From Zeus faber (taxonomy: Eukaryota; Chordata; Actinopteri; Zeiformes; Zeidae), in contig OY482854.1 of the NCBI GenBank assembly GCA_960531495.1, forward strand, positions 34,412,450-34,476,449: DNA of 64,000 nt, read 5' to 3'. Numbering within the stretch: the stretch's first letter is position 1; the number at the start of each line of letters is the position of its first letter. Under the pieces are notes generated by a model. The model was not told the DNA's origin, did not search any database, and saw only the letters and a program-made list of their open reading frames with translations. This document shows positions 1,258 through 61,095 of the stretch, in pieces. Both the position numbers and the translations under genes were made by a program.

Positions 1258-2318
1258 TTGGTTGAGTACTGTATTGATGATCCCGTCTACCCAGTTTGGG
1301 TAGCCTGGTATGTATTGGTGAGTACTTTTCCTATGTTCCCCCCTGGCCAGCAAGGGCAGTTTGGTATAGGGGACCAAAGGTAATGCACGGGCCGTCGCAC
1401 GTTATCAAGATTCTCCAATCCCGTATTATGTTAGGTAGAGAGTTAGGTTCCTGTTCAAGTTGTTGCGGATGGTTAAGAACGTTTTGTTTGTTTTTTGTTC
1501 TGGGTGTAAACGTGGTTAAATACACCTTGTTTGTTTTTGTTTCCAGTTGTTTATGGATGGTTAAGAACACCCTATTTGTTTTATTTGGGTGTTCATTTGT
1601 TATGGGTTTAAGCGTGGTTAAATAAACCTTGTTTGTTTTTGTTTCAAGTTGTTACGAATGGTTAAGATCACCTTGTTTGTTTTTTTGGTTACGGGTTTAA
1701 GCGTGGTTAGGTACACCTTATTTGTTTCTGTTTCAAGTTTTTACGGATTGGTTCAGAACACCTTGTTTGTTCCTTATTACGGGTTTAAGCGTGGTTAAGT
1801 ACACCTTGTTAGTTTCTTGTTTAAAGTTGTTACGGATGGTTAAGATCACCTTGTTTGTTTTTTTGGTTACGGGTTTAAGCGTGGTTAGGTACACCTTATT
1901 TGTTTCTGTTACAAGTTTTTACGGATTGGTTCAGAACACCTTGTTTGTTCCTTATTACGGGTTTAAGCGTGGTTAAGTACACCTTGTTAGTTTCTTGTTT
2001 AAAGTTGTTACGGATGGTAAGAAAACCTTGTTTGTTTTTTATTACGAGTTTAAGCGTGGTTAGGTACACCTTATTGTTTTTTGATTTGGGTTTGTTGAGT
2101 ACTGTATAGATGATTCCGTTTACCCAGTTGGGTATCCTGGCATGTATTGGTGAGTACTATTCCTATGTTCCCCCCTGGCCAGCATGGGCAGTTTGGTATA
2201 GGGGACCAAAGGTAATGCACGGGCCGTCGCACGTTATCAAGATTCTCCAATCCCGTATTATGTTAGGTAGAGAGTTAGGTTCCTGTTCAAGTTGTTGCGG
2301 ATGGTTAAGAACGTTTTG
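1258..2318 (+). repeat. A0: partial A-type head (P, minisatellite, P' and stub)
   Basis: A 1061-bp segment repeated almost exactly as the first 1061 bp of A1 (2319-3379). It consists of P at 1258, the 43-45-bp minisatellite from about 1456, variant P' at 2091, and a short minisatellite stub that stops at 2318, where the next P begins. It looks like a head fragment onto which a full A unit was joined. Confidence 0.85.
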
Positions 2319-2516
2319 TTGGTTGAGTACTGTATTGATGATCCCGTCTACCCAGTTTGGGTAGCCTGGTATGTATTGGTGAGTACTTTTCCTATGTTCC
2401 CCCCTGGCCAGCAAGGGCAGTTTGGTATAGGGGACCAAAGGTAATGCACGGGCCGTCGCACGTTATCAAGATTCTCCAATCCCGTATTATGTTAGGTAGA
2501 GAGTTAGGTTCCTGTT
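2319..2516 (+). repeat. P module (reference copy)
   Basis: About 198 bp starting TTGGTTGAGTACTG. Box TGAGTACT lies at module bases 6-13 and again at 62-69. Between them, CTACCCA-GTT-TGGGTAG can form a hairpin at bases 30-46. A C-rich/TGGCCA stretch and a conserved segment ending about GTTAGGTAGAG follow. About 41 P or P' copies occur in the window, and the left edge is the same base at each. Function is unknown; a recombination or replication site, or an element terminus, are possibilities. Confidence 0.85.
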
Positions 2517-3151
2517 CAAGTTGTTGCGGATGGTTAAGAACGTTTTGTTTGTTTTTTGTTCTGGGTGTAAACGTGGTTAAATACACCTTGTTTGTTTTTG
2601 TTTCCAGTTGTTTATGGATGGTTAAGAACACCCTATTTGTTTTATTTGGGTGTTCATTTGTTATGGGTTTAAGCGTAGTTAAATAAACCTTGTTTGTTTT
2701 TGTTTCAAGTTGTTACGAATGGTTAAGATCACCTTGTTTGTTTTTTTGGTTACGGGTTTAAGCGTGGTTAGGTACACCTTATTTGTTTCTGTTTCAAGTT
2801 TTTACGGATTGGTTCAGAACACCTTGTTTGTTCCTTATTACGGGTTTAAGCGTGGTTAAGAACACCTTGTTAGTTTCTTGTTTAAAGTTGTTACGGATGG
2901 TTAAGATCACCTTGTTTGTTTTTTTGGTTACGGGTTTAAGCGTGGTTAGGTACACCTTATTTGTTTCTGTTACAAGTTTTTACGGATTGGTTCAGAACAC
3001 CTTGTTTGTTCCTTATTACGGGTTTAAGCGTGGTTAAGTACACCTTGTTAGTTTCTTGTTTAAAGTTGTTACGGATGGTAAGAAAACCTTGTTTGTTTTT
3101 TATTACGAGTTTAAGCGTGGTTAGGTACACCTTATTGTTTTTTGATTTGGG
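2517..3151 (+). repeat. 43-45-bp minisatellite, array I of A1
   Basis: Alternating monomers, one ending about GTTACGGATGGTTAAG and the other about CGGGTTTAAGCGTGGTTAAG. Each is followed by NACACCTTGTTTGTTT-like sequence. Four monomers (45+43+45+45 bp) make a 178-bp higher-order unit, present about twice here. The short frames inside simply recur with the 178-bp period. Confidence 0.88.
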
Positions 3152-3349
3152 TTTGTTGAGTACTGTATAGATGATTCCGTTTACCCAGTTGGGTATCCTG
3201 GCATGTATTGGTGAGTACTATTCCTATGTTCCCCCCTGGCCAGCATGGGCAGTTTGGTATAGGGGACCAAAGGTAATGCACGGGCCGTCGCACGTTATCA
3301 AGATTCTCCAATCCCGTATTATGTTAGGTAGAGAGTTAGGTTCCTGTTC
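3152..3349 (+). repeat. P' variant of the P module
   Basis: A diverged P copy starting TTTGTTGAGTACTG, with a shorter hairpin loop (TACCCA-GT-TGGGTA) and CATGGGC instead of CAAGGGC. It begins at the same base as P but is joined on its left to minisatellite DNA. Confidence 0.83.
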
Positions 3350-3846
3350 AAGTTGTTGCGGATGGTTAAGAACGTTTTGTTTGTTTTTTGTTCTGGGTTT
3401 AAACGTGGTTAAATACACCTTGTTTGTTTTTGTTTCCAGTTGTTTATGGATGGTTAAGAACACCCTATTTGTTTTATTTGGGTGTTCATTTGTTATGGGT
3501 TTAAGCGTGGTTAAATAAACCTTGTTTGTTTTTGTTTCAAGTTGTTACGAATGGTTAAGATCACCTTGTTTGTTTTTTTGGTTACGGGTTTAAGCGTGGT
3601 TAGGTACACCTTATTTGTTTCTGTTTCAAGTTTTTACGGATTGGTTCAGAACACCTTGTTTGTTCCTTATTACGGGTTTAAGCGTGGTTAAATACACCTT
3701 GTTAGTTTCTTGTTTAAAGTTGTTACGGATGGTAAGAAAACCTTGTTTGTTTTTTATTACGAGTTTAAGCGTGGTTAGGTACACCTTATTGTTTTTTGTT
3801 TCAAGTTGTTACGGATGGTTAAGCGCACCCTGTTTCTTCTTTCTCT
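3350..3846 (+). repeat. 43-45-bp minisatellite, array II of A1
   Basis: The same monomer family as array I, ending in a T/C-rich stretch before module M. Confidence 0.85.
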
Positions 3847-4013
3847 GAATTTCCATATGATTACTTTTAGGAATTTAGGACACATTCATCAGTAGTGTAC
3901 CTCAGGATCATTGAGTGTTTCAGCCTTTTAAACAAACTATACACCCTCTCCTTGAGGCAGGCCACCTGGGTTTGATCAAGACCCTGGTGTGTGTCCCCCG
4001 GTCAATTGGTTTT
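3847..4013 (+). repeat. M module, shared by A, B and C units
   Basis: A conserved non-repetitive segment of about 170 bp, found once per A, B and C unit. Near its end, arms CACC-T-GGGT and ACCC-T-GGTG with a TTGATCA-type loop (about 3962-3988) form a good hairpin with one T-T mismatch in A and C; pairing is weaker in B. I recognise no RNA gene or promoter box in it. Confidence 0.7.
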
Positions 4014-4330
4014 ATTTAAAAAAAATTTGTTCGTTGGATTTCGTTGCATTTGGGTACGACCTTTATACGTTGGTAGGATATTCTTTTCCTTAGACTTTGA
4101 GTTTTTTTTGGTTAGGTTCTGTCTTTGTCATTGGGTAGTTCTTACTATGGTCATTCGGATTTTGTTGAGTTTGGGTACGGTTTTTCTTTGTCGGTAAGAT
4201 ATTTCTGTCCTAGGATTCTGTTGAGTTTGGGTAAGTTTGTATCACTATTTTTTCTTAAGGTGCCTCCGGTATTATTGGTTGGACTTTGTTGAGCTTGGAT
4301 ACGTTGCCTTTTAATTTATCCCAGGTACAT
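4014..4330 (+). repeat. degenerate ~60-bp tandem repeat
   Basis: Recurring phrases of the type TTGGATTTTGTTGAGTTTGG followed by GTACGACC, TTTGTC and GATATT, spaced about 57-64 bp. Copies are substantially diverged. The B units carry a shorter, better preserved version. Confidence 0.7.
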
Positions 4331-5278
4331 TTCTGCTGTTGTTAGACGAGGTAGTCGAGTTTGGCTAAATTGAAATACCGTTGTTCTAACGTTATTCAAG
4401 TTGGTCGGGTTTTGGTTATTTTCTTGGGTAAGCTATCGTCTGTTTGATGATAGTTTGGTTACTTCGGTTATAATGGATAATAAGATCTGATTACGGGTAT
4501 GTCTTGGGAGTAAGGATAAATTAGACCTAGTAGAGTAAGTGGTTACTGTTATCTCCTAGGTATTATTATACAGGTTGGGTTAAAGGATGGAGATAGGTAG
4601 TTAGTTCTAAAAGGTCTAGGTCCCGGTGCATCCACGGCCTGGTCCCTAAGTTTGGACCAGGGGATGAGGAAATAAGGGTGTGAAAATTTAAATTGCTGTA
4701 AAAACAGCATTCTACTTTTAAAGGAACAATTCCTGTGTCCCGTACACCGCACAACTCCAGGAATTGTCCAATATATCTATGTTTTTTTTAGTTTTACACC
4801 TAGAAACCTTGGATAACACTTACCCCAGCCAGGTCTTCATTATTTTATCACTTAAATTTCGTATAGGGTCTACTCGGGTTATGTCTTTCACCCTCCTGGT
4901 TCCTGGGATTTTATGTTTTTAATAATGTAGTTGGGGTCCTGAATATTATATTTAGAATTTCATTAAACGATTGGTGGCATATAAATATTTTTTCGTGCAA
5001 TAAAATGCGTGAAGAAATTAAAATTAAAAGTACCCATGGTTCATAGCGGTTTTTTTCGGTAGGAACGGCCGCTACTTCCTGAAGGGGAGTCTCTAGCATG
5101 ATGTTCATCCTCTGATTGGTCCTCTATAATTATCCCATAATTCCTCTATTTTATTAGTTGACTATGTTTTTGTATGTTAAATAATTTTCAATAGCCTACT
5201 GAAATTATTTTAACCAGAAAAAACATCGCGGAAGTGTTTCATTAACGTGGGGATGTTGTAGGTTTTTTTTTTTTAAAA
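4331..5278. other. U: unique ~0.95-kb block without recognised gene
   Basis: Low-copy sequence present once per A and C unit and absent from B. Open frames do not exceed about 68 codons and overlap on the same strand. It holds a cluster of three perfect stem-loops (4638-4767) and ends in a T-run followed by an A-run just before the CpG-rich block. I recognise no protein or RNA family. Confidence 0.6.
4638..4767. other. cluster of three perfect stem-loops in U (A1)
   Basis: Three serial perfect inverted repeats: CCTGGTCC/GGACCAGG (4638-4645, 4654-4661; 8-nt loop), TGCTGT/ACAGCA (4694-4699, 4704-4709; AAAA loop) and ACAATTCCTG/CAGGAATTGT (4726-4735, 4758-4767; 22-nt loop). The cluster is unchanged in the otherwise more diverged C0 unit. 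It could be part of a structured RNA or a single-strand DNA feature; neither is shown. Confidence 0.6.
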
Positions 5279-5575
5279 AAACGGTACCATGAGCGATAGC
5301 GGTAGCGCTTGTAATGACATGACAGCGGGAAAACAAAATAATCTCCGGGTGGACAACTTCTGTCCAAAACAATCCGGTCGACAGCGAGCAACTCGCCGCC
5401 GAGAAAACCGGCCCTCAAAGAGAAGTAAAGGCAGTCCATCGGCATCGCGAGCGAAACTCGCGCCGCGATTAAAGTGGCACTCCATCACTCTCGGTGGATC
5501 CGGCTGACTACACACACTACGCGTGGGGCTATACACCTGGGCACGGAGAACGCTCCGTGTTGGAATGTCCGTAGT
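5279..5575. promoter_or_regulatory. CpG-rich GC block (candidate CpG island), A1
   Basis: I count about 29 CpG dinucleotides by eye in roughly 290 bp. The flanks are AT-rich, and adjacent U and the minisatellites have few CpGs. Three perfect stem-loops lie inside: TGGACA/TGTCCA (5350-5366), CGCGAG/CTCGCG (5446-5462) and CACGGAG/CTCCGTG with an AACG loop (5542-5559). An open frame of 72 basic codons starts at 5289 on the + strand, but coding evidence is weak. Downstream on the + strand lie TTAGGG-like arrays, so a rightward transcript would carry UUAGGG repeats. The promoter role is inference. Confidence 0.45.
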
Positions 5576-5745
5576 CATTATATAAATATATAAATAAATA
5601 GAAAAAACTAATAAATAAATACATAAATAATTTAGAAAAAATCTATAAATATATAAAAAAATATATATAAAAAAAATATAATAAAAACATAATAAAAAAA
5701 TATATATATATGAAAAAAATATATATATATAAAAACAAACCTTCC
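5576..5745. repeat. AT-rich low-complexity tract, A1
   Basis: Almost pure A/T with TATATA, AATAAA and ATAAAT repetitions. The C units contain an extra internal duplication here. The long minus-strand frame rich in Tyr, Phe and Ile across this tract in C units is a composition artefact. Confidence 0.85.
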
Positions 5746-5792
5746 CACATAACTATTCATTTTAACTACATCTGTAGTAATTAGAGATTTTA

Positions 5793-5813
5793 GGGTTGGG
5801 GAAAGGGGTGGGG
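5793..5813 (+). other. G-quadruplex motif, A1
   Basis: Four G-runs with loops TT, AAA and T (G3-TT-G4-AAA-G4-T-G4), a canonical intramolecular G4 pattern on the + strand. It lies between the AT-rich tract and the degenerate telomeric array, followed at once by a T-run. Present in all eight A/C-type units that reach this position (5793, 12303, 33597, 37348, 43582, 49816, 56050, 62284). Confidence 0.7.
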
Positions 5814-5869
5814 TTTTTTTTGTTACGTTTTTTTTATATATAAAAAAGATTGGGTAACAGTGATGGTTT

Positions 5870-6590
5870 TAGAGCTAAGGTTAGGTTTAGGGTTAGGTCT
5901 AAGGTTAGGCTCAGGGCTAGGTTTAGGGTTAGGTTTAGGGTTAGGTTTAGGGTTAGGTTTAGGGTTAGATTGAGGGTTAAGTTTAGGGTTAGATTGAGGG
6001 TTAAGTTTAGGGTTGGATTGAGGGTTAAGTTTAGGGTTAGGTTTAGGGTTAGGTTAAGCGCTAGGGTTAGGTTTAGGGTCGGGTTTAGGGCTAGGTCTTA
6101 GGGTTAACGTTAGGGTTAGGTTTAGAACCAGGGCTAGGGTTAGTTTTAGGGTTAGGTTTAGGGCTAGGTTAGGGTTAGGGTTAGGGTTAGGGTGGGGAAT
6201 ATGGTTAGGGTAGGGGTTGGGGTTAGGTTTAGATTCAGAGTTAGGTTGGGGTTAGTTAAGCTTAAGGTTGGGGTTGGGGTTAGGGTTAGGGTTAGGGTTG
6301 GGAATGTGTTGAGGGTAGGGGTTAAGTTTAGGGTTTAGGTCCGGATTCAGGATTGGGTAAGGGTTAATAGGGTTAGGGTTAGGGTTAGGGTTAGGAATGT
6401 GTTAAGGGTAGGGGTTAGGGTTAGGGTTAGGTTTGGATTCAAGGACTCGTGTTAAGAGTTAGGGTTTGGGTTAGGGTTAGAGTTAGGGTTTGGGTTAGGG
6501 TTAGGGTTAGGGTTGGGAATATGTTAAGGGTTAGGGTTAGGGGTTAGGGTTAGGGTTAGGGTTAGGGTTAGGGTTGGGAATGTGTTGAGG
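5870..6590 (+). repeat. degenerate telomere-like array, A1
   Basis: About 0.7 kb of TTAGGG relatives: 12-bp TTTAGGGTTAGG periods near 5910-5965, a 24-bp GATTGAGGG-type alternation near 5966-6040, then mixed stretches with short runs of true TTAGGG and phrases such as GGGAATGTGTTGAGGG. The G-rich strand faces the chromosome end. Confidence 0.88.
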
Positions 6591-6600
6591 GTTTACCAAG

Positions 6601-8204
6601 TATATTGGGATAGACTCCGGGTTACGGTTAGTTTGTTTGTTATGAAGATTAATTAATTATAAGGTTTATTTTTAGAAGGAGCAAGAGGGAGGTAGGAGGG
6701 AGGTAGAGGGAAGGAGAGCCGTCTGTTCGGACTGCATTCTCCTCCTGCCTGTTCGGGCTGTTCTCTACCGTCCCAACTCTCTCATTTTCATGAGAGAAAG
6801 GGAAGAGAGTGAAAAAAAGGTTTGTGAGTTAAATTGTTTGGGTTATTTTGTTCGGGCATAAATTCTAATTGGTCCTAGGTGGTAGTGGGTTATATTAATC
6901 CGGTAATGTTATATCAAGTATATTGGGATAGATACCGGGTTACGGTTAGTTTGTTTGTTATGAAGATTAATTCATTATAAGGTTTATTTTTAGAAGGAGC
7001 AAGAGGGAGGTAGGAGGGAGGTAGAGGGAAGGAGAGCCGTCTGTTCGGACTGCATTCTCCTCCTGCCTGTTCGGGCTGTTCTCTACCGTCCCAACTCTCT
7101 CATTTTCATGAGAGAAAGGGAAGAGAGTGAAAAAAAGGTTTGTGAGTTAAATTGTTTGGGTTATTTTGTTCGGGCATAAATTCTAATTGGTCCTAGGTGG
7201 TAGTGGGTTATATTAATCCGGTAATGTTTTATTAAGTATATTGGGATAGACTCCGGGTTACGGTTAGTTTGTTTGTTATGAAGATTAATTCATTATAAGG
7301 TTTATTTTTAGAAGGAGCAAGAGGGAGGTAGGAGGGAGGTAGAGGGAAGGAGAGCCGTCTGTTCGGACTGCATTCTCCTCCTGCCTGTTCGGGCTGTTCT
7401 CTACCGTCCCAACTCTCTCATTTTCATGAGAGAAAGGGAAGAGAGTGAAAAAAAGGTTTGTGAGTTAAATTGTTTGGGTTATTTTGTTCGGGCGTAAATT
7501 CTAATTGGTCCTAGGTGGTAGTGGGTTATATTAATCCGGTAATGTTATATCAAGTATATTGGGATAGACTCTGGGTTACGGTTAGTTTGTTTGTTATGAA
7601 GATTAATTCATTATAAGGTTTATTTTTAGAAGGAGCAAGAGGGAGGTAGGAGGGAGGTAGAGGGAAGGAGAGCCGTCTGTTCGGACTGCATTCTCCTCCT
7701 GCCTGTTCGGGCTGTTCTCTACCGTCCCAACTCTCTCATTTTCATGAGAGAAAGGGAAGAGAGTGAAAAAAAGGTTTGTGAGTTAAATTGTTTGGGTTAT
7801 TTTGTTCGGGCGTAAATTCTAATTGGTCCTAGGTGGTAGTGGGTTATATTAATCCGGTAATGTTATATCAAGTATATTGGGATAGACTCCGGGTTACGGT
7901 TAGTTTGTTTGTTATGAAGATTAATTCATTATAAGGTTTATTTTTAGAAGGAGCAAGAGGGAGGTAGGAGGGAGGTAGAGGGAAGGAGAGCCGTCTGTTC
8001 GGACTGCATTCTCCTCCTGCCTGTTCGGGCTGTTCTCTACCGTCCCAACTCTCTCATTTTCATGAGAGAAAGGGAAGAGAGTGAAAAAAAGGTTTGTGAG
8101 TTAAATTGTTTGGGTTATTTTGTTCGGGCGTAAATTCTAATTGGTCCTAGGTGGTAGTGGGTTATATTAATCCGGTAGTGTTATATCAAGTATATTGGGA
8201 TACG
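6601..8204 (+). repeat. five 318-bp tandem repeats (R318), A1
   Basis: Copies start at 6601, 6919, 7237, 7555 and 7873, each exactly 318 bp, followed by a 12-base partial copy at 8191. Each carries one K element. The first copy has AATTAATT where the others have AATTCATT, the second has GATACC, and the fourth has GACTCTGGG. No spacers are present, so this is not a CRISPR array. Confidence 0.95.
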
Positions 8205-8402
8205 TTGGTTGAGTACTGTATTGATGATCCCGTCTACCCAGTTTGGGTAGCCTGGTATGTATTGGTGAGTACTTTTCCTATGTTCCCCCCTGGCCAGCAA
8301 GGGCAGTTTGGTATAGGGGACCCAAGGTAATGCACGGGCCGTCGCACGTTATCAAGATTCTCCAATCCCGTATTATGTTAGGTAGAGAGTAAGGTTCCTG
8401 TT
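8205..8402 (+). repeat. P module after the R318 array, A1
   Basis: A P copy distinguished by ACCCAAGG instead of ACCAAAGG and GAGTAAGG instead of GAGTTAGG. Its left flank is a truncated 318-bp repeat ending GGGATACG. Confidence 0.85.
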
Positions 8403-8626
8403 CAAGTTGTTGCGGATGGTTAAGAACGTTTTGTTTGTTTTTTGTTCTGGGTTTAACCGTGGCAAAATACACCTTGTTGGTTTTTGTTTCAAGTTGTTAT
8501 GGATGGTTAAGAACACCCTATTTGTTTTTTTTGGGTGTTCATTTGTTATGGGTTTAAGCGTGGTTAAATAAACCTTATTTGTTTTTGTTCCAAGTTGTTA
8601 CGAATGGTTAAGATCACCTTGTTTGA
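8403..8626 (+). repeat. short minisatellite block, A1
   Basis: About five monomers of the 43-45-bp family between P (8205) and the truncated P' (8627). Confidence 0.8.
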
Positions 8627-8758
8627 TTTGTTGAGTACTGTATTGATGATTCCGTTTACCCAGTTGGGTATCCTGGCATGTATTGGTGAGTACTATTCCT
8701 ATGTTCCCCCCTGGCCAGCATGGGCAGTTTGGTATAGGGGACCAAAGGTAATGCACGG
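8627..8758 (+). repeat. truncated P' copy, A1
   Basis: The first 132 bp of P', ending at GCACGG, where it switches to tail Z. The left flank ends in A rather than the usual G. Confidence 0.8.
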
Positions 8759-8827
8759 TCTTGGTAAGATAATACATATAATGGGTTATAAGGAGAATCT
8801 GCTTTCCGAGGCACAGGCTAGGTTAGG
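8759..8827 (+). repeat. Z tail with TTAGG end, A1
   Basis: A 69-bp segment ending AGGCTAGGTTAGG directly before the next P. A near-identical tail ends every full B unit (for example 18640-18700, ending TTAGG). It marks the right end of a unit and leaves a telomere-like TTAGG at the junction. Confidence 0.8.
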
Positions 8828-10355
8828 TTGGTTGAGTACTGTATTGATGATCCCGTCTACCCAGTTTGGGTAGCCTGGTATGTATTGGTGAGTACTTTTC
8901 CTATGTTCCCCCCTGGCCAGCAAGGGCAGTTTGGTATAGGGGACCAAAGGTAATGCACGGGCCGTCGCACGTTATCAAGATTCTCCAATCCCGTATTATG
9001 TTAGGTAGAGAGTTAGGTTCCTGTTCAAGTTGTTGCGGATGGTTAAGAACGTTTTGTTTGTTTTTTGTTCTGGGTGTAAACGTGGTTAAATACACCTTGT
9101 TTGTTTTTGTTTCCAGTTGTTTATGGATGGTTAAGAACACCCTATTTGTTTTATTTGGGTGTTCATTTGTTATGGGTTTAAGCGTAGTTAAATAAACCTT
9201 GTTTGTTTTTGTTTCAAGTTGTTACGAATGGTTAAGATCACCTTGTTTGTTTTTTTGGTTACGGGTTTAAGCGTGGTTAGGTACACCTTATTTGTTTCTG
9301 TTTCAAGTTTTTACGGATTGGTTCAGAACACCTTGTTTGTTCCTTATTACGGGTTTAAGCGTGGTTAAGAACACCTTGTTAGTTTCTTGTTTAAAGTTGT
9401 TACGGATGGTTAAGATCACCTTGTTTGTTTTTTTGGTTACGGGTTTAAGCGTGGTTAGGTACACCTTATTTGTTTCTGTTACAAGTTTTTACGGATTGGT
9501 TCAGAACACCTTGTTTGTTCCTTATTACGGGTTTAAGCGTGGTTAAGTACACCTTGTTAGTTTCTTGTTTAAAGTTGTTACGGATGGTAAGAAAACCTTG
9601 TTTGTTTTTTATTACGAGTTTAAGCGTGGTTAGGTACACCTTATTGTTTTTTGATTTGGGTTTGTTGAGTACTGTATAGATGATTCCGTTTACCCAGTTG
9701 GGTATCCTGGCATGTATTGGTGAGTACTATTCCTATGTTCCCCCCTGGCCAGCATGGGCAGTTTGGTATAGGGGACCAAAGGTAATGCACGGGCCGTCGC
9801 ACGTTATCAAGATTCTCCAATCCCGTATTATGTTAGGTAGAGAGTTAGGTTCCTGTTCAAGTTGTTGCGGATGGTTAAGAACGTTTTGTTTGTTTTTTGT
9901 TCTGGGTTTAAACGTGGTTAAATACACCTTGTTTGTTTTTGTTTCCAGTTGTTTATGGATGGTTAAGAACACCCTATTTGTTTTATTTGGGTGTTCATTT
10001 GTTATGGGTTTAAGCGTGGTTAAATAAACCTTGTTTGTTTTTGTTTCAAGTTGTTACGAATGGTTAAGATCACCTTGTTTGTTTTTTTGGTTACGGGTTT
10101 AAGCGTGGTTAGGTACACCTTATTTGTTTCTGTTTCAAGTTTTTACGGATTGGTTCAGAACACCTTGTTTGTTCCTTATTACGGGTTTAAGCGTGGTTAA
10201 ATACACCTTGTTAGTTTCTTGTTTAAAGTTGTTACGGATGGTAAGAAAACCTTGTTTGTTTTTTATTACGAGTTTAAGCGTGGTTAGGTACACCTTATTG
10301 TTTTTTGTTTCAAGTTGTTACGGATGGTTAAGCGCACCCTGTTTCTTCTTTCTCT
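8828..10355 (+). repeat. P/P' and minisatellite block, A2
   Basis: P at 8828, P' at 9661, with the 43-45-bp minisatellite after each. Confidence 0.85.
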
Positions 10356-11146
10356 GAATTTCCATATGATTACTTTTAGGAATTTAGGACACATTCATCA
10401 GTAGTGTACCTCAGGATCATTGAGTGTTTCAGCCTTTTAAACAAACTATACACCCTCTCCTTGAGGCAGGCCACCTGGGTTTGATCAAGACCCTGGTGTG
10501 TGTCCCCCGGTCAATTGGTTTTATTTAAAAAAAATTTGTTCGTTGGATTTCGTTGCATTTGGGTACGACCTTTATACGTTGGTAGGATATTCTTTTCCTT
10601 AGACTTTGAGTTTTTTTTGGTTAGGTTCTGTCTTTGTCATTGGGTAGTTCTTACTATGGTCATTCGGATTTTGTTGAGTTTGGGTACGGTTTTTCTTTGT
10701 CGGTAAGATATTTCTGTCCTAGGATTCTGTTGAGTTTGGGTAAGTTTGTATCACTATTTTTTCTTAAGGTGCCTCCGGTATTATTGGTTGGACTTTGTTG
10801 AGCTTGGATACGTTGCCTTTTAATTTATCCCAGGTACATTTCTGCTGTTGTTAGACGAGGTAGTCGAGTTTGGCTAAATTGAAATACCGTTGTTCTAACG
10901 TTATTCAAGTTGGTCGGGTTTTGGTTATTTTCTTGGGTAAGCTATCGTCTGTTTGATGATAGTTTGGTTACTTCGGTTATAATGGATAATAAGATCTGAT
11001 TACGGGTATGTCTTGGGAGTAAGGATAAATTAGACCTAGTAGAGTAAGTGGTTACTGTTATCTCCTAGGTATTATTATACAGGTTGGGTTAAAGGATGGA
11101 GATAGGTAGTTAGTTCTAAAAGGTCTAGGTCCCGGTGCATCCACGG

Positions 11147-11276
11147 CCTGGTCCCTAAGTTTGGACCAGGGGATGAGGAAATAAGGGTGTGAAAATTTAA
11201 ATTGCTGTAAAAACAGCATTCTACTTTTAAAGGAACAATTCCTGTGTCCCGTACACCGCACAACTCCAGGAATTGT
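11147..11276. other. stem-loop cluster, A2
   Basis: Same three perfect inverted repeats as 4638-4767. Confidence 0.58.
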
Positions 11277-11788
11277 CCAATATATCTATGTTTTTTTTAG
11301 TTTTACACCTAGAAACCTTGGATAACACTTACCCCAGCCAGGTCTTCATTATTTTATCACTTAAATTTCGTATAGGGTCTACTCGGGTTATGTCTTTCAC
11401 CCTCCTGGTTCCTGGGATTTTATGTTTTTAATAATGTAGTTGGGGTCCTGAATATTATATTTAGAATTTCATTAAACGATTGGTGGCATATAAATATTTT
11501 TTCGTGCAATAAAATGCGTGAAGAAATTAAAATTAAAAGTACCCATGGTTCATAGCGGTTTTTTTCGGTAGGAACGGCCGCTACTTCCTGAAGGGGAGTC
11601 TCTAGCATGATGTTCATCCTCTGATTGGTCCTCTATAATTATCCCATAATTCCTCTATTTTATTAGTTGACTATGTTTTTGTATGTTAAATAATTTTCAA
11701 TAGCCTACTGAAATTATTTTAACCAGAAAAAACATCGCGGAAGTGTTTCATTAACGTGGGGATGTTGTAGGTTTTTTTTTTTTTAAAA

Positions 11789-13100: not shown

Positions 13101-13110
13101 GTTTACCAAG

Positions 13111-49892: not shown

Positions 49893-50623
49893 TAGAGCTA
49901 AGGTTAGGTTTAGGGTTAGGTCTAAGGTTAGGCTCAGGGCTAGGTTTAGGGTTAGGTTTAGGGTTAGGTTTAGGGTTAGGTTTAGGGTTAGATTGAGGGT
50001 TAGATTGAGGGTTAGATTGAGGGTTAAGTTTAGGGTTGGATTGAGGGTTAAGTTTAGGGTTAGGTTTAGGGTTAGGTTAAGCGCTAGGGTTAGGTTTAGG
50101 GTCGGGTTTAGGGCTAGGTCTTAGGGTTAACGTTAGGGTTAGGTTTAGAACCAGGGCTAGGGTTAGTTTTAGGGTTAGGTTTAGGGCTAGGTTAGGGTTA
50201 GGGTTAGGGGTTAGGGGTTAGGGTTAGGGTTAGGGTGGGGAATATGGTTAGGGTAGGGGTTGGGGTTAGGTTTAGATTCAGAGTTAGGTTGGGGTTAGTT
50301 AAGCTTAAGGTTGGGGTTGGGGTTAGGGTTAGGGTTAGGGTTGGGAATGTGTTGAGGGTAGGGGTTAAGTTTAGGGTTTAGGTCCGGATTCAGGATTGGG
50401 TAAGGGTTAATAGGGTTAGGGTTAGGGTTAGGGTTAGGAATGTGTTAAGGGTAGGGGTTAGGGTTAGGGTTAGGTTTGGATTCAAGGACTCGTGTTAAGG
50501 GTTAGGGTTAGGGTTTAGGGTTTGGGTTAGGGTTTGGGTTAGGGTTAGGGTTAGGGTTGGGAATATGTTAAGGGTTAGGGTTAGGGGTTAGGGTTAGGGT
50601 TAGGGTTGGGAATGTGTTGAGGG
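49893..50623 (+). repeat. degenerate telomere-like array, C3
   Basis: Same as C1. Confidence 0.88.
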
Positions 50624-50632
50624 TTTACCAAG

Positions 50633-51918
50633 TATATTGGGATAGACTCCGGGTTACGGTTAGTTTGTTTGTTATGAAGATTAATTAATTATAAGGTTTA
50701 TTTTTAGAAGGAGCAAGAGGGAGGTAGGAGGGAGGTAGAGGGAAGGAGAGCCGTCTGTTCGGACTGCATTCTCCTCCTGCCTGTTCGGGCTGTTCTCTAC
50801 CGTCCCAACTCTCTCATTTTCATGAGAGAAAGGGAAGAGAGTGAAAAAAAGGTTTGTGAGTTAAATTGTTTGGGTTATTTTGTTCGGGCATAAATTCTAA
50901 TTGGTCCTAGGTGGTAGTGGGTTATATTAATCCGGTAATGTTATATCAAGTATATTGGGATAGATACCGGGTTACGGTTAGTTGGTTTGTTATGAAGATT
51001 AATTCATTATAAGGTTTATTTTTAGAAGGAGCAAGAGGGAGGTAGGAGGGAGGTAGAGGGAAGGAGAGCCGTCTGTTCGGACTGCATTCTCCTCCTGCCT
51101 GTTCGGGCTGTTCTCTACCGTCCCAACTCTCTCATTTTCATGAGAGAAAGGGAAGAGAGTGAAAAAAAGGTTTGTGAGTTAAATTGTTTGGGTTATTTTG
51201 TTCGGGCATAAATTCTAATTGGTCCTAGGTGGTAGTGGGTTATATTAATCCGGTAATGTTTTATTAAGTATATTGGGATAGACTCCGGGTTACGGTTAGT
51301 TTGTTTGTTATGAAGATTAATTCATTATAAGGTTTATTTTTAGAAGGAGCAAGAGGGAGGTAGGAGGGAGGTAGAGGGAAGGAGAGCCGTCTGTTCGGAC
51401 TGCATTCTCCTCCTGCCTGTTCGGGCTGTTCTCTACCGTCCCAACTCTCTCATTTTCATGAGAGAAAGGGAAGAGAGTGAAAAAAAGGTTTGTGAGTTAA
51501 ATTGTTTGGGTTATTTTGTTCGGGCGTAAATTCTAATTGGTCCTAGGTGGTAGTGGGTTATATTAATCCGGTAATGTTATATCAAGTATATTGGGATAGA
51601 CTCCGGGTTACGGTTAGTTTGTTTGTTATGAAGATTAATTCATTATAAGGTTTATTTTTAGAAGGAGCAAGAGGAAAGTAGGAGGGAGGTAGAGGGAAGG
51701 AGAGCCGTCTGTTCGGACTGCATTCTCCTCCTGCCTGTTCGGGCTGTTCTCTACCGTCCCAACTCTCTCATTTTCATGAGAGAAAGGGAAGAGAGTGAAA
51801 AAAAGGTTTGTGAGTTAAATTGTTTGGGTTATTTTGTTCGGGCGTAAATTCTAATTGGTCCTAGGTGGTAGTGGGTTATATTAATCCGGTAGTGTTATAT
51901 CAAGTATATTGGGATACG
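50633..51918 (+). repeat. four R318 repeats, C3
   Basis: Same copy number and diagnostic bases as C1. Confidence 0.95.
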
Positions 51919-54861
51919 TTGGTTGAGTACTGTATTGATGATCCCGTCTACCCAGTTTGGGTAGCCTGGTATGTATTGGTGAGTACTTTTCCTATGTTCC
52001 CCCCTGGCCAGCAAGGGCAGTTTGGTATAGGGGACCCAAGGTAATGCACGGGCCGTCGCACGTTATCAAGATTCTCCAATCCCGTATTATGTTAGGTAGA
52101 GAGTAAGGTTCCTGTTCAAGTTGTTGCGGATGGTTAAGAACGTTTTGTTTGTTTTTTGTTCTGGGTTTAACCGTGGCAAAATACACCTTGTTGGTTTTTG
52201 TTTCAAGTTGTTATGGATGGTTAAGAACACCCTATTTGTTTTTTTTGGGTGTTCATTTGTTATGGGTTTAAGCGTGGTTAAATAAACCTTATTTGTTTTT
52301 GTTCCAAGTTGTTACGAATGGTTAAGATCACCTTGTTTGATTTGTTGAGTACTGTATTGATGATTCCGTTTACCCAGTTGGGTATCCTGGCATGTATTGG
52401 TGAGTACTATTCCTATGTTCCCCCCTGGCCAGCATGGGCAGTTTGGTATAGGGGACCAAAGGTAATGCACGGTCTTGGTAAGATAATACATATAATGGGT
52501 TATAAGGAGAATCTGCTTTCCGAGGCACAGGCTAGGTTAGGTTGGTTGAGTACTGTATTGATGATCCCGTCTACCCAGTTTGGGTAGCCTGGTATGTATT
52601 GGTGAGTACTTTTCCTATGTTCCCCCCTGGCCAGCAAGGGCAGTTTGGTATAGGGGACCAAAGGTAATGCACGGGCCGTCGCACGTTATCAAGATTCTCC
52701 AATCCCGTATTATGTTAGGTAGAGAGTTAGGTTCCTGTTCAAGTTGTTGCGGATGGTTAAGAACGTTTTGTTTGTTTTTTGTTCTGGGTGTAAACGTGGT
52801 TAAATACACCTTGTTTGTTTTTGTTTCCAGTTGTTTATGGATGGTTAAGAACACCCTATTTGTTTTATTTGGGTGTTCATTTGTTATGGGTTTAAGCGTG
52901 GTTAAATAAACCTTGTTTGTTTTTGTTTCAAGTTGTTACGAATGGTTAAGATCACCTTGTTTGTTTTTTTGGTTACGGGTTTAAGCGTGGTTAGGTACAC
53001 CTTATTTGTTTCTGTTTCAAGTTTTTACGGATTGGTTCAGAACACCTTGTTTGTTCCTTATTACGGGTTTAAGCGTGGTTAAGTACACCTTGTTAGTTTC
53101 TTGTTTAAAGTTGTTACGGATGGTTAAGATCACCTTGTTTGTTTTTTTGGTTACGGGTTTAAGCGTGGTTAGGTACACCTTATTTGTTTCTGTTACAAGT
53201 TTTTACGGATTGGTTCAGAACACCTTGTTTGTTCCTTATTACGGGTTTAAGCGTGGTTAAGTACACCTTGTTAGTTTCTTGTTTAAAGTTGTTACGGATG
53301 GTAAGAAAACCTTGTTTGTTTTTTATTACGAGTTTAAGCGTGGTTAGGTACACCTTATTGTTTTTTGATTTGGGTTTGTTGAGTACTGTATAGATGATTC
53401 CGTTTACCCAGTTGGGTATCCTGGCATGTATTGGTGAGTACTATTCCTATGTTCCCCCCTGGCCAGCATGGGCAGTTTGGTATAGGGGACCAAAGGTAAT
53501 GCACGGGCCGTCGCACGTTATCAAGATTCTCCAATCCCGTATTATGTTAGGTAGAGAGTTAGGTTCCTGTTTAAGTTGTTGCGGATGGTTAAGAACGTTT
53601 TGTTTGTTTTTTGTTCTGGGTTTAAACGTGGTTAAATACACCTTGTTTGTTTTTGTTTCCAGTTGTTTATGGATGGTTAAGAACACCCTATTTGTTTTAT
53701 TTGGGTGTTCATTTGTTATGGGTTTAAGCGTGGTTAAATAAACCTTTTTTGTTTTTGTTTCAAGTTGTTACGAATGGTTAAGATCACCTTGTTTGTTTTT
53801 TTGGTTACGGGTTTAAGCGTGGTTAGGTACACCTTATTTGTTTCTGTTTCAAGTTTTTACGGATTGGTTCAGAACACCTTGTTTGTTCCTTATTACGGGT
53901 TTAAGCGTGGTTAAGTACACCTTGTTAGTTTCTTGTTTAAAGTTGTTACGGATGGTTAAGAAAACCTTGTTTGTTTTTTATTACGAGTTTAAGCGTGGTT
54001 AGGTACACCTTATTGTTTTTTGTTTCAAGTTGTTACGGATGGTTAAGCGCACCCTGTTTCTTCTTTCTCTGAATTTCCATATGATTACTTTTAGGAATTT
54101 AGGACACATTCATCAGTAGTGTACCTCAGGATCATTGAGTGTTTCAGCCTTTTAAACAAACTATACACCCTCTCCTTGAGGCAGGCCACCTGGGTTTGAT
54201 CAAGACCCTGGTGTGTGTCCCCCGGTCAATTGGTTTTATTTAAAAAAAATTTGTTCGTTGGATTTCGTTGCATTTGGGTACGACCTTTATACGTTGGTAG
54301 GATATTCTTTTCCTTAGACTTTGAGTTTTTTTTGGTTAGGTTCTGTCTTTGTCATTGGGTAGTTCTTACTATGGTCATTCGGATTTTGTTGAGTTTGGGT
54401 ACGGTCTTTCTTTGTCGGTAAGATATTTCTGTCCTAGGATTCTGTTGAGTTTGGGTAAGTTTGTATCACTATTTTTTCTTAAGGTGCCTCCGGTATTATT
54501 GGTTGGACTTTGTTGAGCTTGGATACGTTGCCTTTTAATTTATCCCAGGTACATTTCTGCTGTTGTTAGACGAGGTAGTCGAGTTTGGCTAAATTGAAAT
54601 ACCGTTGTTCTAACGTTATTCAAGTTGGTCGGGTTTTGGTTATTTTCTTGGGTAAGCTATCGTCTGTTTGATGATAGTTTGGTTACTTCGGTTATAATGG
54701 ATAATAAGATCTGATTACGGGTATGTCTTGGGAGTAAGGATAAATTAGACCTAGTAGAGTAAGTGGTTACTGTTATCTCCTAGGTATTATTATACAGGTT
54801 GGGTTAAAGGATGGAGATAGGTAGTTAGTTCTAAAAGGTCTAGGTCCCGGTGCATCCACGG

Positions 54862-54991
54862 CCTGGTCCCTAAGTTTGGACCAGGGGATGAGGAAATAAG
54901 GGTGTGAAAATTTAAATTGCTGTAAAAACAGCATTCTACTTTTAAAGGAACAATTCCTGTGTCCCGTACACCGCACAACTCCAGGAATTGT
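54862..54991. other. stem-loop cluster, C4
   Basis: Same three perfect inverted repeats. Confidence 0.58.
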
Positions 54992-55498
54992 CCAATATAT
55001 CTATGTTTTTTTTAGTTTTACACCTAGAAACCTTGGATAACACTTACCCCAGCCAGGTCTTCATTATTTTATCACTTAAATTTCGTATAGGGTCTACTCG
55101 GGTTATGTCTTTCACCCTCCTGGTTCCTGGGATTTTATGTTTTTAATAATGTAGTTGGGGTCCTGAATATTATATTTAGAATTTCATTAAACGATTGGTG
55201 GCATATAAATATTTTTTCGTGCAATAAAATGCGTGAAGAAATTAAAATTAAAAGTACCCATGGTTCATAGCGGTTTTTTTCGGTAGGAACGGCCGCTACT
55301 TCCTGAAGGGGAGTCTCTAGCATGATGTTCATCCTCTGATTGGTCCTCTATAATTATCCCATAATTCCTCTATTTTATTAGTTGACTATGTTTTTGTATG
55401 TTAAATAATTTTCAATAGCCTACTGAAATTATTTTAACCAGAAAAAACATCGCGGAAGTGTTTCATTAACGTGGGGATGTTGTAGGTTTTTTTTTAAA

Positions 55499-55794
55499 AA
55501 ACGGTACCATGAGCGATAGCGGTAGCGCTTGTAATGACATGACAGCGGGAAAACAAAATAATCTCCGGGTGGACAACTTCTGTCCAAAACAATCCGGTCG
55601 ACAGCGAGCAACTCGCCGCCGAGAAAACCGGCCCTCAAAGAGAAGTAAAGGCAGTCCATCGGCATCGCGAGCGAAACTCGCGCCGCGATTAAAGTGGCAC
55701 TCCATCACTCTCGGTGGATCCGGCTGACTACACACACTACGCGTGGGGCTATACACCTGGGCACGGAGAACGCTCCGTGTTGGAATGTCCGTAG
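55499..55794. promoter_or_regulatory. CpG-rich GC block, C4
   Basis: Same as C1. Confidence 0.43.
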
Positions 55795-56126
55795 TCATTA
55801 TATAAATATATAAATAAATAGAAAAAACTAATAAATAAATACATAAATAATTTAGAAAAAATCTATAAATATATAAAAAAATATATATAAAAAATATAAT
55901 AAAAACATAATAAAAAAATATATATGAAAAAAATATAATAAAAACATAATAAAAAAATATATATATATGAAAAAAATATATATATATAAAAACAAACCTT
56001 CCCACATAACTATTCATTTTAACTACATCTGTAGTAATTAGAGATTTTAGGGTTGGGGAAAGGGGTGGGGTTTTTTTTGTTACGTTTTTTTTATATATAA
56101 AAAAGATTGGGTAACAGTGATGGTTT

Positions 56127-56857
56127 TAGAGCTAAGGTTAGGTTTAGGGTTAGGTCTAAGGTTAGGCTCAGGGCTAGGTTTAGGGTTAGGTTTAGGGTTA
56201 GGTTTAGGGTTAGGTTTAGGGTTAGATTGAGGGTTAGATTGAGGGTTAGATTGAGGGTTAAGTTTAGGGTTGGATTGAGGGTTAAGTTTAGGGTTAGGTT
56301 TAGGGTTAGGTTAAGCGCTAGGGTTAGGTTTAGGGTCGGGTTTAGGGCTAGGTCTTAGGGTTAACGTTAGGGTTAGGTTTAGAACCAGGGCTAGGGTTAG
56401 TTTTAGGGTTAGGTTTAGGGCTAGGTTAGGGTTAGGGTTAGGGGTTAGGGGTTAGGGTTAGGGTTAGGGTGGGGAATATGGTTAGGGTAGGGGTTGGGGT
56501 TAGGTTTAGATTCAGAGTTAGGTTGGGGTTAGTTAAGCTTAAGGTTGGGGTTGGGGTTAGGGTTAGGGTTAGGGTTGGGAATGTGTTGAGGGTAGGGGTT
56601 AAGTTTAGGGTTTAGGTCCGGATTCAGGATTGGGTAAGGGTTAATAGGGTTAGGGTTAGGGTTAGGGTTAGGAATGTGTTAAGGGTAGGGGTTAGGGTTA
56701 GGGTTAGGTTTGGATTCAAGGACTCGTGTTAAGGGTTAGGGTTAGGGTTTAGGGTTTGGGTTAGGGTTTGGGTTAGGGTTAGGGTTAGGGTTGGGAATAT
56801 GTTAAGGGTTAGGGTTAGGGGTTAGGGTTAGGGTTAGGGTTGGGAATGTGTTGAGGG
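56127..56857 (+). repeat. degenerate telomere-like array, C4
   Basis: Same as C1. Confidence 0.88.
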
Positions 56858-56866
56858 TTTACCAAG

Positions 56867-58152
56867 TATATTGGGATAGACTCCGGGTTACGGTTAGTTT
56901 GTTTGTTATGAAGATTAATTAATTATAAGGTTTATTTTTAGAAGGAGCAAGAGGGAGGTAGGAGGGAGGTAGAGGGAAGGAGAGCCGTCTGTTCGGACTG
57001 CATTCTCCTCCTGCCTGTTCGGGCTGTTCTCTACCGTCCCAACTCTCTCATTTTCATGAGAGAAAGGGAAGAGAGTGAAAAAAAGGTTTGTGAGTTAAAT
57101 TGTTTGGGTTATTTTGTTCGGGCATAAATTCTAATTGGTCCTAGGTGGTAGTGGGTTATATTAATCCGGTAATGTTATATCAAGTATATTGGGATAGATA
57201 CCGGGTTACGGTTAGTTGGTTTGTTATGAAGATTAATTCATTATAAGGTTTATTTTTAGAAGGAGCAAGAGGGAGGTAGGAGGGAGGTAGAGGGAAGGAG
57301 AGCCGTCTGTTCGGACTGCATTCTCCTCCTGCCTGTTCGGGCTGTTCTCTACCGTCCCAACTCTCTCATTTTCATGAGAGAAAGGGAAGAGAGTGAAAAA
57401 AAGGTTTGTGAGTTAAATTGTTTGGGTTATTTTGTTCGGGCATAAATTCTAATTGGTCCTAGGTGGTAGTGGGTTATATTAATCCGGTAATGTTTTATTA
57501 AGTATATTGGGATAGACTCCGGGTTACGGTTAGTTTGTTTGTTATGAAGATTAATTCATTATAAGGTTTATTTTTAGAAGGAGCAAGAGGGAGGTAGGAG
57601 GGAGGTAGAGGGAAGGAGAGCCGTCTGTTCGGACTGCATTCTCCTCCTGCCTGTTCGGGCTGTTCTCTACCGTCCCAACTCTCTCATTTTCATGAGAGAA
57701 AGGGAAGAGAGTGAAAAAAAGGTTTGTGAGTTAAATTGTTTGGGTTATTTTGTTCGGGCGTAAATTCTAATTGGTCCTAGGTGGTAGTGGGTTATATTAA
57801 TCCGGTAATGTTATATCAAGTATATTGGGATAGACTCCGGGTTACGGTTAGTTTGTTTGTTATGAAGATTAATTCATTATAAGGTTTATTTTTAGAAGGA
57901 GCAAGAGGAAAGTAGGAGGGAGGTAGAGGGAAGGAGAGCCGTCTGTTCGGACTGCATTCTCCTCCTGCCTGTTCGGGCTGTTCTCTACCGTCCCAACTCT
58001 CTCATTTTCATGAGAGAAAGGGAAGAGAGTGAAAAAAAGGTTTGTGAGTTAAATTGTTTGGGTTATTTTGTTCGGGCGTAAATTCTAATTGGTCCTAGGT
58101 GGTAGTGGGTTATATTAATCCGGTAGTGTTATATCAAGTATATTGGGATACG
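56867..58152 (+). repeat. four R318 repeats, C4
   Basis: Same copy number and diagnostic bases as C1. Confidence 0.95.
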
Positions 58153-61095
58153 TTGGTTGAGTACTGTATTGATGATCCCGTCTACCCAGTTTGGGTAGCC
58201 TGGTATGTATTGGTGAGTACTTTTCCTATGTTCCCCCCTGGCCAGCAAGGGCAGTTTGGTATAGGGGACCCAAGGTAATGCACGGGCCGTCGCACGTTAT
58301 CAAGATTCTCCAATCCCGTATTATGTTAGGTAGAGAGTAAGGTTCCTGTTCAAGTTGTTGCGGATGGTTAAGAACGTTTTGTTTGTTTTTTGTTCTGGGT
58401 TTAACCGTGGCAAAATACACCTTGTTGGTTTTTGTTTCAAGTTGTTATGGATGGTTAAGAACACCCTATTTGTTTTTTTTGGGTGTTCATTTGTTATGGG
58501 TTTAAGCGTGGTTAAATAAACCTTATTTGTTTTTGTTCCAAGTTGTTACGAATGGTTAAGATCACCTTGTTTGATTTGTTGAGTACTGTATTGATGATTC
58601 CGTTTACCCAGTTGGGTATCCTGGCATGTATTGGTGAGTACTATTCCTATGTTCCCCCCTGGCCAGCATGGGCAGTTTGGTATAGGGGACCAAAGGTAAT
58701 GCACGGTCTTGGTAAGATAATACATATAATGGGTTATAAGGAGAATCTGCTTTCCGAGGCACAGGCTAGGTTAGGTTGGTTGAGTACTGTATTGATGATC
58801 CCGTCTACCCAGTTTGGGTAGCCTGGTATGTATTGGTGAGTACTTTTCCTATGTTCCCCCCTGGCCAGCAAGGGCAGTTTGGTATAGGGGACCAAAGGTA
58901 ATGCACGGGCCGTCGCACGTTATCAAGATTCTCCAATCCCGTATTATGTTAGGTAGAGAGTTAGGTTCCTGTTCAAGTTGTTGCGGATGGTTAAGAACGT
59001 TTTGTTTGTTTTTTGTTCTGGGTGTAAACGTGGTTAAATACACCTTGTTTGTTTTTGTTTCCAGTTGTTTATGGATGGTTAAGAACACCCTATTTGTTTT
59101 ATTTGGGTGTTCATTTGTTATGGGTTTAAGCGTGGTTAAATAAACCTTGTTTGTTTTTGTTTCAAGTTGTTACGAATGGTTAAGATCACCTTGTTTGTTT
59201 TTTTGGTTACGGGTTTAAGCGTGGTTAGGTACACCTTATTTGTTTCTGTTTCAAGTTTTTACGGATTGGTTCAGAACACCTTGTTTGTTCCTTATTACGG
59301 GTTTAAGCGTGGTTAAGTACACCTTGTTAGTTTCTTGTTTAAAGTTGTTACGGATGGTTAAGATCACCTTGTTTGTTTTTTTGGTTACGGGTTTAAGCGT
59401 GGTTAGGTACACCTTATTTGTTTCTGTTACAAGTTTTTACGGATTGGTTCAGAACACCTTGTTTGTTCCTTATTACGGGTTTAAGCGTGGTTAAGTACAC
59501 CTTGTTAGTTTCTTGTTTAAAGTTGTTACGGATGGTAAGAAAACCTTGTTTGTTTTTTATTACGAGTTTAAGCGTGGTTAGGTACACCTTATTGTTTTTT
59601 GATTTGGGTTTGTTGAGTACTGTATAGATGATTCCGTTTACCCAGTTGGGTATCCTGGCATGTATTGGTGAGTACTATTCCTATGTTCCCCCCTGGCCAG
59701 CATGGGCAGTTTGGTATAGGGGACCAAAGGTAATGCACGGGCCGTCGCACGTTATCAAGATTCTCCAATCCCGTATTATGTTAGGTAGAGAGTTAGGTTC
59801 CTGTTTAAGTTGTTGCGGATGGTTAAGAACGTTTTGTTTGTTTTTTGTTCTGGGTTTAAACGTGGTTAAATACACCTTGTTTGTTTTTGTTTCCAGTTGT
59901 TTATGGATGGTTAAGAACACCCTATTTGTTTTATTTGGGTGTTCATTTGTTATGGGTTTAAGCGTGGTTAAATAAACCTTTTTTGTTTTTGTTTCAAGTT
60001 GTTACGAATGGTTAAGATCACCTTGTTTGTTTTTTTGGTTACGGGTTTAAGCGTGGTTAGGTACACCTTATTTGTTTCTGTTTCAAGTTTTTACGGATTG
60101 GTTCAGAACACCTTGTTTGTTCCTTATTACGGGTTTAAGCGTGGTTAAGTACACCTTGTTAGTTTCTTGTTTAAAGTTGTTACGGATGGTTAAGAAAACC
60201 TTGTTTGTTTTTTATTACGAGTTTAAGCGTGGTTAGGTACACCTTATTGTTTTTTGTTTCAAGTTGTTACGGATGGTTAAGCGCACCCTGTTTCTTCTTT
60301 CTCTGAATTTCCATATGATTACTTTTAGGAATTTAGGACACATTCATCAGTAGTGTACCTCAGGATCATTGAGTGTTTCAGCCTTTTAAACAAACTATAC
60401 ACCCTCTCCTTGAGGCAGGCCACCTGGGTTTGATCAAGACCCTGGTGTGTGTCCCCCGGTCAATTGGTTTTATTTAAAAAAAATTTGTTCGTTGGATTTC
60501 GTTGCATTTGGGTACGACCTTTATACGTTGGTAGGATATTCTTTTCCTTAGACTTTGAGTTTTTTTTGGTTAGGTTCTGTCTTTGTCATTGGGTAGTTCT
60601 TACTATGGTCATTCGGATTTTGTTGAGTTTGGGTACGGTCTTTCTTTGTCGGTAAGATATTTCTGTCCTAGGATTCTGTTGAGTTTGGGTAAGTTTGTAT
60701 CACTATTTTTTCTTAAGGTGCCTCCGGTATTATTGGTTGGACTTTGTTGAGCTTGGATACGTTGCCTTTTAATTTATCCCAGGTACATTTCTGCTGTTGT
60801 TAGACGAGGTAGTCGAGTTTGGCTAAATTGAAATACCGTTGTTCTAACGTTATTCAAGTTGGTCGGGTTTTGGTTATTTTCTTGGGTAAGCTATCGTCTG
60901 TTTGATGATAGTTTGGTTACTTCGGTTATAATGGATAATAAGATCTGATTACGGGTATGTCTTGGGAGTAAGGATAAATTAGACCTAGTAGAGTAAGTGG
61001 TTACTGTTATCTCCTAGGTATTATTATACAGGTTGGGTTAAAGGATGGAGATAGGTAGTTAGTTCTAAAAGGTCTAGGTCCCGGTGCATCCACGG

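Follow-up and report, generated by a model that had tools for sequence, protein, structure and literature searches.

The stretch of DNA analysed here (hereafter the window) is the terminal 64,000 bases of a 34,476,449-base contig of the Zeus faber assembly (OY482854.1; 803,497,848 bases in 153 contigs), and the contig end that it contains is pure (TTAGGG)n. Inward of this telomeric array lies a patchwork of repeat units that begin with a module called P, or with its relative P', and it is the left, centromere-facing edge of P (P-left) that concerns us. The units are all arranged head-to-tail, none is inverted, and no minus-strand self matches were found within the window. Searches of the whole window against Rfam at the gathering score gave no match, nor did positions 29427-40073 at an E value of 1, and prokaryotic, viral and phage searches of the window were also without match, as expected of a eukaryotic subtelomere. 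Outside the telomere-like arrays the window shows a strong strand asymmetry, the outward strand containing 60% G+T and the centromere-ward strand 15% G.

The window contains 41 starts, 26 of P and 15 of P', that have one terminus in common; 0.01 matches to the start pattern are expected in shuffled sequence, so that chance is excluded. All 26 P copies begin with GTTGG[T/G]TGAG (longer form GTTGG[T/G]TGAGTACTG) and the P' copies with [A/G]TTTGTTGAG (longer form [A/G]TTTGTTGAGTACTG). Because every P start carries the initial G, we moved the junction one base to the left of TTGG, where a preliminary description of this DNA had placed it. That description gave the P start as GTTGGTTGAG, which is right for most copies but not for nine of the 26 (17153 to 29427, in the 1.53-kb array), which begin with GTTGGGTGAG; it also gave the preceding base as G in every case checked except the P' of 8627, which holds for P. 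Among the 15 P' copies the base is G in 9 and A in 6, so that 8627 is no single exception but belongs to a tandem set of six. Compared with one another, A-type P, B-type P and P' are 93.5-97% alike and their terminus falls at the identical base, while the right ends vary: minisatellite, R318, 60-bp repeat, P itself, degenerate TTAGGG, true telomere or a constant tail Z. When seven segment types were compared pairwise they proved collinear from P-left onward; cutting at P starts makes segments begin at P by construction, which is circular, and the independent content of the comparison is this collinearity. P-left is intrinsic, as a terminus, to several related units (1.53-kb B, 6.2-kb A, 3.4-kb, 623-bp P-to-Z, P' and others), since units with different upstream neighbours join unrelated flanks at the same base.

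All units lie on the plus strand. The first is an A-type unit cut after 1,061 bp (1257..2317), joined at GTTGG, with microhomology GTT, to a B-type unit truncated just before tail Z; it includes a P' segment (2091..2317, start [G]TTTGTTGAG) that follows a truncated minisatellite and is cut after 227 bp. To this truncated P' is joined, again with microhomology GTT, a 6.51-kb A-type unit with five R318 (2318..8826), whose last part is a 623-bp P-to-Z unit ('S', 8204..8826) joined to a truncated R318 with one extra base, C. The 623-bp unit has six identical copies in the window (8204, 14714, 39450, 45684, 51918 and 58152), and elsewhere in the genome a unit of about this size (623-630 bp, judged mostly by spacing) follows ten different flanks. 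A second 6.51-kb A-type unit (8827..15336) is joined to Z by GGTTAG/GTTGG (the solidus marks the join), and the next A-type unit, truncated at the core edge (15337..16879), is capped by telomere repeats. This cap is an interstitial pure TTAGGG array (16880..17152), presumably a former chromosome end, to which the following P is joined at GGTTAG/GTTGG. It measures 273 bp, lies 47 kb inside the present end and shows no visible decay, and is probably a buried former telomere.

Beyond it come eight full 1.53-kb B-type units and a ninth (17153..30294), which start with GTTGGGTGAG and end in tail Z, except for the ninth, cut in the 60-bp repeat after 868 bp. Tail Z (18634..18699 in the first of them) is the distal terminus common to A- and B-type units, which share both ends: 193 of 199 bases agree at P and 67 of 69 aligned bases at Z, the last three of these being the next GTT. 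An A-rich run at 18456-18501 and its equivalents differs in length among otherwise near-identical B units and could serve as a clock or unit label. A 137-bp P stub (30295..30431) is joined to the truncated 60-bp repeat with microhomology G, and a 3.4-kb P unit (30432..33838), joined to this stub with microhomology GT, ends in degenerate and then pure TTAGGG. The remainder consists of 4.8 tandem A-type units of 6,234 bp (33839..63663), the first joined to TTAGGG at GGTTAG/GTTGG and the last truncated inside R318. These units are 99.98-99.996% identical by shifted self-comparison (up to 23.6 kb), which implies very recent amplification or conversion. A reading frame of 183 codons (36764-37315, minus strand) recurs with each 6,234-bp unit; it overlaps AT-rich low-complexity sequence and has no Pfam match. 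The terminal TTAGGG array (63661..64000) is seeded at GGGTTA inside R318. Two truncated ends in the window, at 16880 and 63661, are capped by TTAGGG instead of P. Degenerate TTAGGG blocks of about 250 to 700 bp also occur inside the A units (5879-6575, 12389-13085, 37434-38139 and repeats) and B units (18043-18291 and repeats), where they are possibly fossil telomeres.

Is the constancy of P-left a peculiarity of this chromosome end? The exact start pattern occurs 1,710 times in the whole genome (1,175 forward, 535 reverse) and the reversed control pattern not once. Two stretches from inside P were counted as well, a marker with 1,633 matches and another, for which as many as 3 mismatches were allowed, with 1,589; both totals lie below that of the starts, so that left-truncated P is not in excess, judged by totals rather than copy by copy. 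Among the matches listed, about the first 100 of each pattern, no copy on a large contig is farther than 177 kb from a contig end and all of these face outward; the remaining copies are on small unplaced contigs (C47, C72, C88, C89, C94 and C129). We read the left flanks at 122 loci (L001-L122) and in the window, in total 260 starts with overlapping loci counted repeatedly, and found 53 distinct 24-nt left flanks. By our classification 3 are tail Z, 12 telomeric, 3 P', 29 direct joins and 6 complex or of another start type, a direct join being A-type P on a truncated family sequence (in five cases inside the degenerate TTAGGG blocks of units). Apart from Z, telomere arrays and P', 32 of 35 flanks meet GTTGG exactly and three are shifted by a few bases (L055 at 2650, L092 and L104). 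As the sampling went through P, joins that begin elsewhere are not detectable by it. All junctions of the preliminary description are present, and its constant edge with many flanks extends well beyond the window. At L008:1470-1520 GAGTTA repeats and a duplicated TTGGTTGGTTGA precede the P left end, in contrast to all other flanks read. At L062:190-950 the innermost repeats read on C2 hold, as seen by eye, a diverged mid-region copy with about 750 bp extra that was not noticed in the window. On contig C1 (L061) the innermost repeats adjoin a stretch that we take to be Tc1-like.

That the assembly of such a highly repetitive end is in error must be considered, given that the arrays are nearly identical and many joins were met only once. 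We regard this as very unlikely, since some joins recur on separate contigs and ends (R318/P on C2, C10, C88 and C89; core/P at both ends of C7) and the breakpoints carry microhomology.

A constant end base facing variable flanks, and two termini, P and Z, common to units of different length, could also point to a cut-and-paste or site-specific mobile element that inserts at P-left. The far-side continuation of the broken flank was, however, not found in the window, nor any orphan remainder, and nowhere in the window does a host flank resume with a target duplication. The lack of minus-strand self matches and, among the matches listed, the position of large-contig copies at ends in a single orientation also argue against such insertion, which we consider hardly credible. 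Of the preliminary proposals, a mobile-element terminus is thus retained in the limited sense that P-left is intrinsic to several units, and not as the end of a cut-and-paste DNA transposon; conservative site-specific recombination finds no support, because no sequence was seen to resume beyond an insert in the window and the left-hand partner is not constant. Helitron-like ends, suggested by CTAG at Z, were dropped for want of a resuming flank. Neither gradual divergence across the P edge nor descent of all junctions from one ancestral duplication, either of which would have told against the preliminary description, was seen. The polar outward growth onto varied ends, together with a terminus intrinsic to P, excludes a single ancestral duplication and makes DNA transposon insertion unlikely. 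P-left is a terminus with a polarity, and eroded chromosome ends capture it.

The joins themselves carry more overlap than random breakage would give. For each join, the flank was compared with its own intact copies and with the donor string GGTTAG/GTTGG; overlap values were set by hand, insertions were scored 0, and the value of the window join at 30432 was lowered from 3 to 2, its third base coming from a telomere-capped truncated copy. Six flanks were dropped before the 29 direct ones were counted (L055 at 2650, L091 at 55, L092, L104, L006 and L008; L092 was also left out of the nine joins into the 623-bp unit). Overlap at the 29 joins averages 2.28 nt and is at least 1 in 22 and at least 3 in 14 of them. 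For random breaks in the same DNA it averages 0.81 if the join is fixed at GTTGG and 0.93 if it may fall anywhere nearby, and in 20,000 simulations no set attained the observed mean. If the five joins that lie in degenerate TTAGGG blocks (L069, L074, L026, L055 at 1510 and L059) are left out, the mean of the remaining 24 is 2.12 (0 of 20,000), and without the single 8-nt overlap as well, that of 23 joins is 1.87, with 0.85 expected (5 of 20,000). The null used one donor string and the observed values the better of two, a difference that touches only L114 (3 or 1) and was corrected in a repeat test; over both tests the mean at the 29 joins is 2.2-2.3 nt. If the overlap is counted solely to the right of the join, its mean is 1.3 (P 0.00025) in the 20 cases that were not assigned to the 623-bp unit. 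An earlier test of the microhomology, confined to five joins of the window, had given P 0.005. The suggestion that P-left is a capture point for rebuilt broken ends fits the truncated flanks, this short microhomology (mean 2.2-2.3 nt at the 29 joins) and the strict orientation toward the end.

Overlaps of 0-4 nt with occasional short insertions would also be left by end joining, in which double-stranded fragments with their left end at P-left, produced at the telomere-like start by recurrent breakage or by a site-preferring nuclease, are ligated to broken ends through microhomology. We know of no cause for a cut at one base here. Breaks in interstitial telomeres are documented in the blast fungus (PMC7367193) and count in favour of this explanation. 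Breakage in telomere tracts should nevertheless leave variable TTAGGG remnants, and only two of the 29 joins have any, L065 (+TTAG) and L114 (+GTTAG). End joining seems to us improbable.

The reading that we favour, tentatively and at somewhat less than even chances, is that chromosome 3' ends prime the copying of a template that ends at P-left, by analogy with terminal retrotransposition of the HeT-A or MoTeR type. P-left is here the terminus, on the side of the centromere, of a family of non-coding repeats found at chromosome ends. At an end that had lost its telomere and part of the array, the exposed G-rich 3' end would pair over 0-4 bases (in one case 8) with the terminus of a template complementary to (GGTTAG)GTTGGTTGAG..., and outward synthesis would then add one or more units or part of one. 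Complete units, which end in tail Z followed by GGTTAG or GATTAG, would present a telomere-like 3' end open either to telomerase or to the next unit, and incomplete ones would become the truncated flanks. The template would most likely be an RNA transcribed inward from the chromosome end, with its 3' end at ...CUCAACCAAC(CUAA), and a reverse transcriptase would act in trans, so that the process would be a terminal target-primed reverse transcription; both the RNA with this 3' end and the enzyme are inferred. Later unequal exchange or break-induced replication would generate the near-identical tandem arrays. We prefer end-primed copying because it accounts at once for the fixed terminus, for outer truncation at variable points, for the stubs and for the constancy of the Z-GGTTAG/P joins.

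The stubs are short P-left pieces after which a new start follows: 10 and 10 nt at L006, about 42 at L091, 62 at L002 and L092, 77 at L095, 137 in the window and 173 at L014, lengths that were mostly read by eye. They look like aborted copying. Slippage may explain the two that end near P position 62, because P repeats TTGGTGAGTAC internally there. P fragments shorter than 200 bp make up about 8 to 10 of about 40 truncated ends, only mildly above the approximately 13% expected from unit structure in this informal count. At telomeric flanks the phase GGTTAG/GTTGG is found at 17153, at 33839 and at several other loci, and TTAGGG caps precede P at C1, C2, C7, C8 and other ends.

A close rival, nearly as likely and given by us about one chance in three, is DNA-templated repair, in which eroded ends would anneal by microhomology to the telomere-like sequence at P-left, either in a different subtelomere or in an excised circle, and would be extended outward by break-induced replication, as in yeast Y' survivors or with the TALT units of worm and mouse ALT cells. 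The near-identical tandem arrays (33839-63663), the invariant Z/P joins, the microhomology and the telomere repeats that precede P units at several ends all fit it, and so does the fact that 28 of 100 A-type starts among the matches listed have another start at 615-640 bp, from which it follows that the 623-bp unit travels with its neighbour. In any case the identity of 99.98-99.996% within the arrays requires some amplification at the DNA level. By itself, however, DNA repair does not explain entry at P-left. Telomere-like targets are far more numerous in the degenerate TTAGGG blocks, and yet among window joins only the one shared by B units enters such a block. The entry point rather seems set by P itself, because the sequence upstream of the putative donors differs (R318 before the 623-bp unit, GGTTAG before A).

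Several observations weigh against end-primed copying of an RNA. The Z/P join does not vary (25 of 25 for A and 59 of 60 for B among those read, with L006, where stubs lie between, in addition), which unit copying at the DNA level explains too, and several telomeric joins are off by a few bases (L057, L099, L100, L067 and L027). None of the 29 direct joins carries an element-derived poly(A) or poly(T), and less than one TTAGGG unit has been added at them. Overlap to the right of the nine joins into the 623-bp unit is not significant (0.78, with 0.42 expected; P 0.15), and neither is the predicted RNA folding of P on either strand (z -0.60 and 0.37). Units also contain at least two discontinuities that all their copies share, one between P' and Z in the 623-bp unit and one where the B unit passes from 60-bp repeat into degenerate TTAGGG; hence not every join in the history of the family began at P. 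The longest window reading frame with a start codon has 183 codons, and no Pfam domain was detected in the 10 window reading frames tested, a helper element elsewhere in the genome not having been sought. Likewise, no reverse transcriptase was found in the window, the rest of the genome not having been searched for one.

The genome has a match to the telomerase RNA-binding domain (E 3.7e-34, with one stop codon within the match), and it has ends of pure TTAGGG. It is conceivable, although we hold it doubtful at about one in three, that an animal which has TTAGGG telomeres and a telomerase gene restores its eroded ends in a second way, through the copying of a non-coding RNA, in units of about 0.6 to 6 kb, from a fixed 3' end onto bare chromosome 3' ends, that is, by a HeT-A-like system beside telomerase with built-in GGTTAG acceptor ends. 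Growth from a fixed terminus, only outward and on broken ends, characterises the telomeric retroelements of Drosophila and of fungi, and its occurrence at no fewer than 29 different breakpoints on TTAGGG ends provides a natural record of eroded-end repair, in which RNA- and DNA-templated rescue become distinguishable by sequencing. It would also explain the patchwork of the subtelomere, as every truncated block may be a former chromosome end.

In those parts of the literature on subtelomeres, fish and vertebrate chromosome ends and telomeric retrotransposons that we consulted we found no description of the P family, which does not prove its absence from print. The nearest parallels are the following. 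HeT-A, TART and TAHRE of Drosophila are also head-to-tail, in one orientation, with a fixed proximal end on eroded or broken ends and variable distal truncation (PMC5537684, PMC4700185), and a G-poor centromere-ward strand, as in our window (15% G), is a reported bias of Drosophila telomeric retrotransposons (PMC5537684). Unlike these elements, the P family has no coding domain that we saw and no proximal poly(A), and it coexists with a telomerase domain and TTAGGG (PMC5537684, PMC4700185). Of the features of telomeric non-LTR (long terminal repeat) retrotransposons it has the constant proximal terminus, the variable distal truncation and the single orientation, and lacks a regular poly(A) or telomere tract at the proximal join, 12 of 53 flanks being telomeric. 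MoTeR1/2 of Magnaporthe and FoTeR of Fusarium reside in TTAGGG telomeres, have long and short forms sharing both termini, are 5'-truncated and expand their arrays by break repair (PMC7367193, PMC12857005). MoTeR1, however, encodes a reverse transcriptase, and between MoTeRs in tandem lies anything from half a TTAGGG unit to more than 20 units (PMC7367193), whereas most direct joins of P have no added telomeric bases and the window yielded no such enzyme. Endonuclease-deficient Penelope-like elements (Athena and Terminons) resemble P in terminal attachment, telomeric sequence at the proximal end and 5' truncation, and differ in carrying a reverse transcriptase (PMC5537684). Yeast Y' elements likewise form subtelomeric tandem units, fall into several size classes and have telomere tracts in interstitial positions, but they carry helicase reading frames (PMC13177704), in contrast to the Pfam-negative frames tested here. 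Finally, TALT1/2 of C. elegans and mTALT of mouse are telomere-bordered units on many ends (PMC4595603, PMC7889907), as are P units at C1, C2, C7, C8 and others, and mTALT is head-to-tail, flanked by telomeric repeats and gives RNA from the end inward (PMC7889907). TALT were amplified in ALT (alternative lengthening of telomeres) lines, and the parts of these two reports that we consulted describe no fixed base joined to dozens of truncated flanks (PMC4595603, PMC7889907). The P family would appear to work like HeT-A arrays, MoTeR/FoTeR and TALT, while differing from each of them in at least one feature.

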